The notes under the pieces: generated by a model
Databases searched by the model: none
Told to the model about the DNA's origin: nothing
Seen by the model: the letters and a program-made list of their open reading frames with translations, nothing else
Shown here: positions 3,295-14,785 of the stretch, one piece after another
How positions within the stretch are numbered: the first letter of the stretch is position 1
Layout: each line of letters begins with the position of its first letter
DNA from: Desulfobacteraceae bacterium
Lineage (GTDB): Bacteria; Desulfobacterota; Desulfobacteria; Desulfobacterales; SURF-15
DNA length: 33,069 nt
Reading direction: 5' to 3'
NCBI GenBank assembly: GCA_003599475.1
Contig: QZKK01000021.1
Span: 1-33,069, forward strand
Program-made: the position numbers and the translations under genes

Positions 3295-4213
3295 CCCCTT
3301 CACCCCTTCCGATCTCAAAAGGGGCGGAAGGCATCGGGAGGGAGCAGGGGATTTTATTTTTCAGCTCGGATACGACGGCCCCATGCAATGGGAAATCCTG
3401 GTCGGATTTCTCGGAAAGCGGAGCATCGAAGGGGTGGAGTCGGTGGCGGAACTGGTTTACCGGCGAAGTGTCCGGCTGCATCATCGGGATCGGGAGCATC
3501 TCGGATGGATAGAAGTCTTACCGGCGGCCCGATGCGAGAAGTTGGAGGTCCGGGCCTCATCCACGCTCACGGAGGTGATCCCTCAGGTTATGGAAGGCGT
3601 CAAGCGACTTTTCGATCTTGGCTGCCGGCCGGCGGAAATCGCGGCCGTATTAGGGCCTCTCGGAAGCAAGAGACCCGGGATTCGGGTTCCGGGAGCATTC
3701 GACGGTTTCGAGATGGCCGTCCGGGCCATCCTGGGCCAGCAGATCACCGTCAAGGCGGCAAGGACGCTGGCGGGCCGTTTCGCAGCGGCCTTCGGGGAGC
3801 CCGTGGCTTCGCCTTTTCCGGAAATCCGGCTTTCTTTTCCCGAGCCGAAGCGGATCGCTCGGGCGAGCATTTCCGAAATCGCCTCCCTTGGAATCGTATC
3901 CCAGCGGGCCCGGTCGATTCTTTCCCTGGCCGGCGCCGTTTCGGATGGAGCCTTATACCTTGCTCCCGGCGTCGATGTGGAGGAGACGGTGTCGGCCTTG
4001 AAGGCCATTCCGGGAATCGGCCCCTGGACGGCCCAATACATCGCCATGCGGGCCTTGTCCTGGCCGGATGCGTTTCCCCATACCGATTACGGAGTCATGA
4101 AGGCTCTGGGGGAGAAAAATCCGGCCAGAGTCATTCAGGCGGCTGAAAAATGGCGGCCCTGGCGGGCCTATGCGGTGATGCACTTATGGCACGGCGAAGG
4201 GGAAGAAAAATGA
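3272..4213 (+). CDS. alkA: DNA-3-methyladenine glycosylase II, AlkA type
   Basis: 313 residues. AlkA N-domain (about residues 25-115, with YRRSVRL), then the HhH-GPD glycosylase domain: VRAILGQQITVKAA, the hairpin LKAIPGIGPWTAQYIAMR at about 243-260, and catalytic aspartate D272 in FPHTDYG, followed by WRPWRAYAVMHLW. It excises alkylated bases from DNA. The first 20 residues, including TPSDLKRG, are the end of an AraC-type HTH, so the gene is the C-terminal half of an ada-alkA fusion whose front is eroded. AGGAGG at 3262-3267, which in the old frame encoded Arg-Arg of LRRFN, now sits 4 bases before this ATG as a good Shine-Dalgarno sequence. The glycosylase domain itself looks intact. Confidence 0.88.
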   Translation: MNRFEEHDPFTPSDLKRGGRHREGAGDFIFQLGYDGPMQWEILVGFLGKRSIEGVESVAELVYRRSVRLHHRDREHLGWIEVLPAARCEKLEVRASSTLTEVIPQVMEGVKRLFDLGCRPAEIAAVLGPLGSKRPGIRVPGAFDGFEMAVRAILGQQITVKAARTLAGRFAAAFGEPVASPFPEIRLSFPEPKRIARASISEIASLGIVSQRARSILSLAGAVSDGALYLAPGVDVEETVSALKAIPGIGPWTAQYIAMRALSWPDAFPHTDYGVMKALGEKNPARVIQAAEKWRPWRAYAVMHLWHGEGEEK

Positions 4214-10153: not shown

Positions 10154-10226
10154 CAAATAACATTACTTTTTTCTAACATTGCTTTGAATAATGAGGGTAT
10201 GCATCGAAGGGCGGCTAAAAACTTAT

Positions 10227-10268
10227 GCTGGATCCTGGATGCTGGATCCTGGATGCTGGATCCTGGAT
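10227..10268. repeat. Three tandem copies of a 14-base unit
   Basis: GCTGGATCCTGGAT is repeated three times exactly, and a degenerate continuation (GCGGGGTGCTGGATGCG) follows. It contains no coding frame and lies between the divergent hsp20 and selenoprotein promoters. Confidence 0.9.
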
Positions 10269-10385
10269 GCGGGGTGCTGGATGCGTGTTGCCGAATTCTC
10301 CGTATTCCAATAATTCAATTCAGCTCTCTCATCGAGCTGCCCGCAACCGGGATACCGCTTTTTCCGCGCAGGCGCCTGCATCCGA

Positions 10386-10414
10386 TTGACAAATTCCATT
10401 GCGATGAATAAACT
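10386..10414 (+). promoter_or_regulatory. Sigma-70-like promoter of the selenoprotein gene
   Basis: TTGACA at 10386-10391, a 17-base spacer, and TAAACT at 10409-10414. The start codon is 55 bases downstream of the -10 box. Confidence 0.55.
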
Positions 10415-10468
10415 ACAGGTAAATTTAACGGTCCAGGGGGTTGAGGACAAATATCTTAGGAGGATAAC

Positions 10469-10783
10469 ATGGTAGAAGTTACATCGTCGGCGACGCAGCA
10501 GATTTCCGAATACTTCAAAGGCCGGGAGGTCGCACCGATCCGGATCTTTCTAAACGAGGGTGGGTGAGGCGGCCCCTCCTTGGGAATGGCTCTGGACGAG
10601 CCGAAAGAAAGCGACAGCGTCTTTGATATCGAAGGTTTTCAGTATCTTATTGACAAAGCCCTCCTGGAGAAGGCAAAACCAATCAAGGTCGATTTCCTGA
10701 ATGTCGGATTCAAAATCGATTCAAACCTCAAATTCGGCTCCTCCTCTTCCTCTTCCGGATGCGAGGGATGCTCCTGCTCGTAA
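10469..10783 (+). CDS. HesB/IscA-like selenoprotein (TGA at 10565-10567 read as Sec)
   Basis: 104 residues if the TGA at codon 33 is selenocysteine. The ATG at 10469 has a strong TAGGAGGA site. Before the TGA the frame reads IRIFLNEGG; after it GGPSLGMALDEPKESDSVFDIEG continues without a break to TAA. HesB-like proteins of this branch have a cysteine here in (G)GCGGPSLGMALDE, and Sec versions are known in deltaproteobacteria. The C-terminus FGSSSSSSGCEGCSCS supplies the cysteine-rich tail of the family. A small hairpin lies at the expected distance after the TGA. Standard gene calling would stop at residue 32 or begin at the TTG at 10580. Related IscA proteins bind Fe or Fe-S; the role of this subgroup is not established. 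Own promoter and terminator. Confidence 0.88.
10588..10602 (+). promoter_or_regulatory. Candidate bacterial SECIS hairpin
   Basis: GGCTC (10588-10592) and GAGCC (10598-10602) pair perfectly around the loop TGGAC, which begins 26 bases after the TGA. Bacterial SECIS elements place a short stem with a G-containing loop roughly 16-37 bases downstream of the UGA, where SelB binds. Position and loop fit; no folding calculation was run. Confidence 0.6.
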
Positions 10784-10807
10784 GATGATAAAAAATTATT
10801 GCTCTTG

Positions 10808-10848
10808 AATGAAAAGGCGGTGTTTGAACCCGCCTTTTTCATTTGATT
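10808..10848 (+). terminator. Rho-independent terminator after the selenoprotein gene
   Basis: AATGAAAAGGCGG (10808-10820) pairs with CCGCCTTTTTCATT (10830-10843) with one bulged base and a 9-base loop, followed by TGATTTTC. It lies 25 bases past the TAA. Confidence 0.88.
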
Positions 10849-11125: not shown

Positions 11126-11479
11126 GTGGACATTTGCACATTATGCGGTAAAGAGAGAACCGGCGCCGGATCCTGCATCGTGAGCCGTATCGTGATCGAG
11201 GGCCGGAACTTCCATCCGGTTCCGTTCAGGGCAAAATCCAAAGAAGATTTTGCAAAGGGTGCATCTTGCCGATGTCCCGAATGCCATGTCCAAAACGGCG
11301 GCATGCACCATGTGGGCTGCAGCCTGGAAGTATGTCCTCGGTGCTCGAATCGCTGGATATTCTGCCGGTGCAACGGCACGAAACTCCGCTTGAACCAAGC
11401 ACCGGCAGATATCGATGGAGAAAACGTCGTTCGACTGCCGATTCCCTTGATTTTCAAGAAATCGAATGTGAAAGGGTGA
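11126..11479 (+). CDS. Small cysteine-rich putative zinc-binding protein
   Basis: 117 residues from a GTG start. Cysteines come in pairs: CTLC at residues 4-7, CRCPECH at 48-54, then GCSLEVCPRCSNRWIFCRC at 64-82. This last block resembles the widespread HxGCDxExCPxCxxQLxxCxC motif of small uncharacterised zinc-ribbon proteins. There is no signal peptide, no membrane segment and no catalytic motif. GAGG lies upstream but at a loose distance. The next small gene starts 3 bases after its stop, so the two are probably co-transcribed. Function unknown. Confidence 0.7.
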   Translation: MDICTLCGKERTGAGSCIVSRIVIEGRNFHPVPFRAKSKEDFAKGASCRCPECHVQNGGMHHVGCSLEVCPRCSNRWIFCRCNGTKLRLNQAPADIDGENVVRLPIPLIFKKSNVKG

Positions 11480-12550: not shown

Positions 12551-12673
12551 AATAGTTGAGAAGTTGAGTTGTCGAGAGGAACCTGGAGACCGATCGACGA
12601 CCTCAATTAAAGGGTAACCTATTTGACCACTCAACCGATTGACCACTCAACCAATCCCCAAAGGAGATCGAAG

Positions 12674-14785
12674 ATGCCCTCCAATCGGTTGATCCATGAA
12701 AAAAGCCCGTATCTTCTCCAGCACGCACACAATCCGGTCGATTGGCACCCATGGTCCGATGAGGCCTTTGAACGAGCCCGATCGGAGGATAAGCCCATTT
12801 TCCTTTCCATCGGGTATGCCACCTGCCACTGGTGCCATGTCATGGAGAAGGAGTCCTTCGAAGATCCGGAAGCCGCCCGTTACCTAAACGATACGTTCGT
12901 ATGCATCAAAGTGGATCGGGAAGAGCGGCCCGATATCGATTCGGTCTATATGGCAGCCTGCAATATGCTCACCGGGAGCGGAGGATGGCCTTTGACGATT
13001 TTCATGACTCCGGAGAGGGAACCGTTCTTTGCGGCCACCTACATTCCGAAAGAGACCCGATTCAACCGGATGGGTCTTGTCGATCTATGCCGGAGAGTCA
13101 AGGAGATGTGGACCGGCGAAAGAGAGAAGCTGTCGAGCTCAGCCGCCGGCATATCGAAAAACCTGGCGAATGCCTTCGACTACGTTTCGGATGGAGATCT
13201 CGATGAAACCGTTTTCGAAAAGGCCTACGATCAATTCGAGCGAAGCTTCGATGCCCGGAACGGCGGCTTCGGAACTGCGCCGAAGTTTCCTTCTCCGCAT
13301 CAGCTTCTGTTCCTTTTGCGGTACTTCCATCGCTCCGGAAAGTCCATGGCGCTCGAGATGGTTCAAAAAACGTTGAAGGCGATGCGGCTGGGCGGCATCT
13401 GGGATCATGTCGGATTCGGTTTTCACCGGTACTCGACCGACAGGCAGTGGCTGCTTCCGCATTTTGAAAAGATGCTCTATGACCAGGCACTGATCGCTCA
13501 TGCTTTTCTAGAGACTTATCAGATCACGCGGTCTTCTTTTTTCGAGGAATGCGCCCGCGAGATCTTCACTTACGTGTTGAGGGATATGACTTCGGAATCC
13601 GGAGGATTTTTTACCGCAGAAGATGCCGACAGCGAAGGAGAAGAGGGAAAGTTCTATGTCTGGAGCCTCGACGAATTCCGGAGCGTGCTCGGTGACGAGG
13701 CGCTGCCTTTCGAGAAGATATTCAATTTGAATCCCGAAGGAAACTTTCTCGAAGAGGCGACCGGAAAAAGGACCGGAGCAAACATCCTTCACCTGGACCG
13801 TTCGATCGGGGGATGGGCCGCAGAGGCTGAACCGGAGAATGGAACAGATCGAAAGAAGATCGCAAGACAATGGGAAAAAGCCAGACGAAAACTCTTCGAT
13901 GCACGGGAAAAGAGGATTCATCCGCTCAAGGACGATAAGGTGTTGACCGGTTGGAACGGATTGATGATTGCCGCAATGGCTATGGGTAAAAGGATTCTGA
14001 ACGAAGCCTCCTACGGAGAGGCGGCTGAACGGGCGATGCGCTTTATTTTAGACACGTTGCGGAAACCGGACGGGAGACTGCTTCATCGATTTCGGGACCA
14101 GGAGACGGCAATCGAAGCTCACGCAGACGATTATGCCTATCTGATTCTCGGCCTCCTTGAGCTCTATTCTGCAACATTCAAGCCGGTTTATCTGGAAGAA
14201 GCGGCCGTTCTTCAGCGTCTCATGCTGGACGATTTCTGGGATGAGGCCGGAGCCGGCTTCTTCCTGACGGCAAGAGGACAAAAAGAACTCCCGGTTCGCC
14301 CCAAGGAACTCTACGACGGAGCGACACCTTCGGCAAACTCGGTTGCACTCTGCAACCTGCTTCGCCTGTCGCGCCTTACCGGAGATACTTACTGGGAAGC
14401 CAAAGCCTCCGCCATGACGAATGTTTTTGCCGGCAGCGTTAAAAAGCAACCAACGGCTTTCACCTATTTTCTCATCGGATTCGATTTTGCCGTACTCGGC
14501 GGTCCGGTAGAGGTGGTTATCGCAGGAGATCCGGACTCCGCCCAGACCCAGCGGATGATCACCGCACTGAACAAGGAATTCGCACCGCATCGTGTCGTGA
14601 TGCTGAAGTCCGAAAAAAATGCCGAAGCGCTGTCGCGGGTCGCCGGATTTACCGATGCATTGAGGATCGTCGAAGGAAAGGCCACCGCTCATATGTGCAA
14701 AGGATTTTCCTGCACCGAATCGACCAGCGATTTCGAGAAGATGGCAAGGGAGGTGCTGGAAAGGGTCAATCCGGGGAAACGTTGA
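12674..14785 (+). CDS. DUF255/YyaL thioredoxin-domain protein (SSP411 family)
   Basis: 703 residues, full length for the family that includes Bacillus YyaL and human SPATA20. The N-terminal thioredoxin-like domain begins [18 protein letters not shown] and carries CHWCHVM (C51, C54), followed by [14 protein letters not shown]. The long C-terminal part is an alpha/alpha-barrel resembling six-hairpin glycosidases, with [25 protein letters not shown] and [19 protein letters not shown]. The biochemical role is not known. The ATG at 12674 follows AAGGAG; the frame is open 17 codons further but without a ribosome site. Monocistronic. Confidence 0.92.

Follow-up and report, generated by a model that had tools for sequence, protein, structure and literature searches.

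A UGA-containing gene and the features around it

We analyzed a 33,069-nucleotide stretch of DNA (the window) that contains a small gene with an internal stop codon. A single frame on the + strand, 10469-10783, is broken by a TGA at codon 33 and nowhere else before its TAA. The earlier note on this DNA had described this frame, its internal TGA and a joined protein of 104 codons, and our own reading of the sequence agrees on each point. Upstream, on the opposite strand, the window contains a gene for Hsp20. Downstream are a Cys-rich open reading frame, a gene for a nitroreductase (PF00881) and a gene for a DUF255 protein (PF03190). The features at the locus are as follows.

10386..10414, + strand: weak candidate for a sigma-70-like promoter, TTGACA-17-TAAACT (1 found, against a mean of 0.9 in shuffled sequence)
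10458..10463, + strand: ribosome binding site AGGAGG, 5 bases ahead of the ATG, read from the sequence
10469..10783, + strand: HesB/IscA-like selenoprotein gene, 104 codons including the internal UGA, then TAA
10565-10567, + strand: in-frame TGA, presumed selenocysteine codon 33, aligned with Cys35 of E. coli IscA; TGA in 76 of 80 loci
10588..10602, + strand: SECIS hairpin, stem 10588-10592/10598-10602 (GGCTC/GAGCC), loop TGGAC at 10593-10597
10736..10780, + strand: C-terminal tail GSSSSSSGCEGCSCS, rich in Ser; its Cys 98, 101 and 103 are presumed further ligands
10805..10846, + strand: intrinsic terminator hairpin (AAAAGGCGG...CCGCCTTTTT), z -4.12

The earlier note held that a promoter, a ribosome binding site and a terminator bracket the whole frame. 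The AGGAGG is present, and the terminator hairpin, which lies 3' of the gene and is joined to a T run, folds strongly (1 of 200 shuffles was equally good). A scan for terminators by consensus found none, probably because it allowed loops of no more than 8 bases and this one exceeds that. The promoter match is weak, at chance level. In the window as a whole, there was no Rfam match at gathering thresholds and no tRNA called by ARAGORN, and a scan for other in-frame TGA candidates, judged by eye, gave no second convincing selenoprotein.

The product belongs to the HesB-like selenoprotein family

Profile tests were run on the joined protein with Cys substituted for Sec at residue 33. The NCBIfam model NF038090 (IscA_HesB_Se) matched with 117.2 bits, against a curated cut-off of 85, and residues 1-95 aligned with positions 1-100 of the 101 in the profile. 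Other models of this superfamily scored below their cut-offs. TIGR01911 (HesB_rel_seleno) matched residues 2-68 with 37.8 bits (cut-off 66.35), and by this test, an HMM score, it would be a sister subfamily. The equivalog models for IscA (30.9 bits, cut-off 150.6), SufA (30 bits, cut-off 136.2) and ErpA (22.9 bits, cut-off 117) did not accept the protein. PF01521, the A-type carrier domain, gave 22.2 bits, under its gathering score of 26.3; the fold matches that of IscA, and the C-terminal Cys residues lie in a tail of low confidence.

An AlphaFold model built from 33 rows had a pLDDT of 82.8 and a pTM of 0.70, with the Cys-rich tail (residues 91-104) under 50. The top PDB matches to the model were IscA (1r94, 1x0g and 1s98) and then SufA (2d2a). 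When the protein is aligned with E. coli IscA (1r94), residue 33 coincides with that chain's Cys35, a ligand residue. The earlier note's assignment to the HesB/IscA-like family is thus upheld by the NF038090 score, by the position of residue 33 on Cys35 and by the match of the model to IscA.

The in-frame TGA is conserved

We scanned for related loci, examining 269 stretches, of which 86 were confirmed and 80 were kept. Codon 33 is matched by TGA in 76 of these loci, by Cys in four (L001, L003, L004 and L005) and by TGG in none. The earlier note had proposed comparing the joined protein with HesB-like proteins and looking for Cys or Sec at residue 33; both Cys and TGA codons occur there. It had also stated that relatives carry cysteine where this gene has TGA. 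That is true of only the four loci; the other 76 have TGA.

Among 291 genomes sampled from the order to which genome G001 belongs, 252 had a match and 39 did not. By hand count, 145 of the 150 matches listed had one TGA, four had no stop, and one had two TGA and a TAA; this count is of stops anywhere within the match, not by codon position. Among the matches listed and the genomes examined, the closest relative was from genome G085. It is 77% identical and contains one TGA, which is at the same place and is followed by the same GGCTCTGGACGAGCC hairpin. The first 32 residues, upstream of the TGA, are kept in frame across 33 aligned sequences. Plasmid records contained only 6 distant matches, none of which covered 80% of the query.

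Codon choice indicates that the hairpin is a SECIS

The stem of the hairpin opens at the 21st base past the TGA. The earlier note had described a perfect stem of five pairs with a G-containing loop after the TGA, and this is what we found. Folded as a single sequence, the hairpin was no better than shuffles (z 0.08). We compared 77 TGA-bearing genes, that is, those of the 76 loci and the one in the window. All five pairs are present in 74 of the 77 (the exceptions are L010, L040 and L044). The apical loop, which contains G, reads TGGAT in 64 genes and TGGAC in the other 13.

The pairs lie mostly on codon positions that are fixed by the protein, so little covariation is expected and codon choice is the test. 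In the hairpin, Ala is encoded by GCT in 76 of the 76 genes that have Ala there (the one other gene has ACT, for Thr), compared to 90 of 444 for the remaining Ala codons of these genes (Fisher p 7e-45). The Leu codon is CTG in 77 of 77, compared to 134 of 413 other Leu codons (p 4e-33), and the Glu codon is GAG in 76 of 77, compared to 209 of 594 other Glu codons (p 4e-30), again within the same genes. These p values ignore kinship among the rows and so overstate independence. A second codon background came from all stop-to-stop open reading frames, on either strand, that reach 250 codons. It includes spurious frames, and the within-gene control is the cleaner of the two. The test against this second background kept 73 of the 77 rows for Ala and 75 for Leu and Glu; rows were dropped if their background was too small or a different amino acid stood at the position. 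In the four Cys copies, by hand reading, the Ala codon is GCC or GCG and the Pro codon position reads CAA, breaking two of the five pairs. Judged by this comparison of relatives, the TGA is followed by a SECIS, conserved far beyond chance.

The same comparison bears on whether the TGA is an accident, that is, whether a Cys or Trp gene acquired the TGA by a point change, either in a pseudogene or through a sequencing error. With the TGA at an identical position in 76 of 80 loci and the hairpin codons nearly frozen, we consider such damage extremely improbable.

Ordinary annotation misreads the gene

In the protein database, 241 relatives passed our search; the figures that follow are for the 120 listed. 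Of these, 83 fit the motif pattern, with W at the Sec codon in 67 and C in 16. Another 21 begin after the UGA, and one of them (P0059, 65 amino acids) is 96% identical to the gene in the window over 64% of it. The other 16 fall outside the patterns and are unclassified, and the 12 of them that were inspected had W in five and C in seven. The earlier note anticipated that normal gene callers would misannotate the gene, and these 21 late starts and 67 W among the 83 bear that out. Ordinary annotation cuts genes of this type short or takes their Sec codon for Trp.

Two other readings of the UGA draw on these entries. If UGA were reassigned to tryptophan, W in 67 of the 83 pattern-fitting rows (among the 120 proteins listed) would be correct, and one relative does have a paralogue with a true Trp (L090). 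However, the contigs that carry the W rows among the proteins listed are all 2125 bases or shorter, so the W at this codon probably comes from code-4 gene calling of TGA on short contigs. In addition, TGG is found at this position in none of the 80 loci, the DUF255 gene in the window (12623-14785) terminates at TGA, and a Trp codon would leave the hairpin without explanation. We give reassignment to Trp almost no credence.

The 21 listed rows that begin after the UGA would be expected if there were two genes, one for a 32-residue peptide and one for an independent product starting from an ATG past the UGA. In contrast, the 32 residues ahead of the UGA keep their frame and are conserved in the 33 aligned sequences, they belong to the predicted IscA-like fold, and the front half alone scored 29.6 bits against NF038090, versus 117.2 for the joined protein. 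The chance that these are two genes appears negligible. We rejected the pseudogene, Trp and two-gene readings, and we treat the frame below as one selenoprotein gene.

Copies with Cys or Trp in place of Sec

We counted copies in 25 genomes of relatives. There were 40 matches, with one TGA in 30 and no stop in 10 (hand count). Three of the ten stop-free copies are Cys copies already among the 80 loci. The other seven are six with Cys and one with Trp; for L086, L089, L090 and L091 the residue at the Sec position comes from inspecting the protein sequence by eye. The Trp copy (L090, G023:C59) is a paralogue in which the Sec/Cys position is a true Trp codon. In nine of the 25 genomes, a stop-free copy accompanies a TGA copy. 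Among these nine, the stop-free copy in G023 is the one with Trp and that in G024 is distant (E 1.3e-7).

We made a tree of 87 sequences of about 100 residues, rooted arbitrarily on L080 and with L091 left out. Nine Cys copies fell in three groups inside the TGA-bearing set, with supports of 0.988, 0.989 and 0.912; the supports of their parent nodes were 0.691, 0.849 and 0.621. The tree is consistent with more than one change between Sec and Cys, the direction of which we infer. Conversion of Sec to Cys with a remnant SECIS has already been described, for a HesB-like gene of Desulfitobacterium (PMC1794560).

Selenocysteine machinery in genomes of relatives

The survey of Sec machinery covered the genomes of relatives only, first the 25 genomes to which 26 of the 80 loci led. 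Of these 25, SelB was over its cut-off in 23, SelA in 23 and tRNA-Sec in 20; all three were over cut-off in 18. Seven genomes were without at least one of the three over cut-off, and G004 was without all of them. Among these 25 genomes, whose completeness is not stated, SelB over cut-off was absent from G002 and G004, SelA from G004 and G018, and tRNA-Sec from G004, G006, G007, G010 and G012. G018 is a draft genome of Desulfosarcina cetonica, the source of L037. Scoring for tRNA-Sec took in only 111 first-look candidates per genome. One tRNA-Sec was weak (G019, 51.9 bits, against a gathering score of 47), and those in the other 19 genomes had at least 68 bits. In 14 control genomes, tRNA-Sec was over cut-off in five, SelB in two and SelA in one, so the cut-off for tRNA-Sec may admit false hits.

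We also searched the DNA of eight genomes with one tRNA-Sec. Only G085 had a match (98% identical); there was none in the other seven, which were the five lacking tRNA-Sec, G028 and G244. G085, the closest relative in the genomes examined, has tRNA-Sec, SelA and SelB, and SelB and SelA were over cut-off in all of G085, G028, G244 and G041.

Three of these genomes merit separate mention. G006 (L009, CP070694.1) contains SelA, SelB and the TGA-bearing gene; no tRNA-Sec over cut-off was found there by the family search, which scored 111 of 591 candidates, or by the DNA search with a single query. G041 has two SelB matches over cut-off. G019 has a second SelB-like gene (L095 1851-3890, G019:C1; 645 amino acids) that matches positions 3-345 of the 581 in the SelB model with 258.1 bits, in addition to a separate full-length SelB match. 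This second gene adjoins a tRNA-Sec called by ARAGORN (3799-3890), and an integrase-like open reading frame, recognized by eye, is close by. It may belong to a Sec system that is dual or mobile, or it may reflect contamination of the bin.

Neighboring genes

In 14 of the 62 loci with enough DNA, a same-strand nitroreductase gene begins downstream, no more than 2.9 kb away; this is a raw count. All 14 are among the 38 loci of L001-L048 that have at least 2.9 kb downstream. A nitroreductase gene is also downstream in L102, from G085. We found no paper that joins a HesB selenoprotein to a nitroreductase in a limited literature collection, and we regard the association as a lead only.

Three other sequences lie near the gene, in the window or in relatives. 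The Cys-rich open reading frame of 117 residues (11126-11479), between the selenoprotein and nitroreductase genes, had no Pfam match; in L012, L026 and L034, tblastn matched it close to the HesB gene. The interval that separates the selenoprotein gene from the Hsp20 gene contains a short tandem array of ATGCTGGATCCTGG (4.3 copies, 10225-10284). Lastly, a macrodomain-like open reading frame, recognized by eye, recurs upstream of the selenoprotein gene in L022, L032, L041 and L044.

Proposed decoding and function

The gene almost certainly encodes a HesB-like selenoprotein of the NF038090 family, with an A-type iron-sulfur carrier fold, in which UGA 33 is decoded as selenocysteine by SelB at the hairpin. 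At the level of sequence, the gene, its family, the position of the codon and the conservation of the SECIS are demonstrated. From established knowledge of the SelB system, SelB with Sec-tRNA-Sec would bind the hairpin that begins 21 bases past UGA 33, and UGA 33 would then be decoded as selenocysteine in the source organism.

The function of the product as a carrier is a much weaker claim than those for the gene, family and SECIS. Sec 33 would replace Cys35 of E. coli IscA. The Sec and the C-terminal Cys cluster would most likely hold a metal ion or an Fe-S cluster, or run thiol-redox chemistry there. A more specific notion is that Sec is a selenolate ligand of the metal or Fe-S cluster, not a plain redox thiol, and that the nearby nitroreductase may be a client or partner; we think this unlikely as it stands. 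The gene is one further case of a widespread selenoprotein family. The conserved UGA and the nearly frozen SECIS codons in relatives make the gene a good marker, and the product would be a good test protein for the job of Sec inside an A-type carrier fold.

Comparison with known systems

Compared to the IscA and SufA carriers (1r94, 1s98, 1x0g and 2d2a), the product is predicted to have the same fold, with TM scores to the query of 0.61-0.71 across six matches with E below 1e-4, one of which is AQ_1857. The first ligand Cys of these carriers sits where the gene has its Sec codon. The product differs from them in sequence (21-26% identity) and is under the equivalog cut-offs. Its C-terminal Cys residues are at 98, 101 and 103, and those of IscA are at 99 and 101.

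The survey of Zhang et al. in 2006 lists the HesB-like proteins, with 11 members, among 25 selenoprotein families of bacteria, and its tables place them in Syntrophobacter, Syntrophus, Desulfovibrio and Geobacter (PMC1794560). By 2016, the count was 90 proteins in 86 organisms (PMC5029168). The family and its recoding have been known for about twenty years. An archaeal protein from Methanococcus maripaludis, found by mutagenesis and 75Se labelling, is likewise a HesB-like selenoprotein, a likeness that we draw by description only. Its function is described as not clear, and a disruption mutant still fixes nitrogen, which is quoted as an unpublished observation (PMC11097638). TIGR01911 is the accession given for HesB-like selenoproteins in two papers (PMC9312934, PMC13188914); the product is related to it in sequence over residues 2-68, yet is below its cut-off. 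The closest likeness is to NF038090, which falls within the HesB-like selenoproteins of Zhang et al. and which the protein matches over its full length; both have the Sec codon where HesB has its ligand. The only difference that we saw was ordinary sequence divergence, and the gene has the Ser-rich tail. Thus, the gene is one more member of the established HesB-like selenoprotein family, and its kind is not new.
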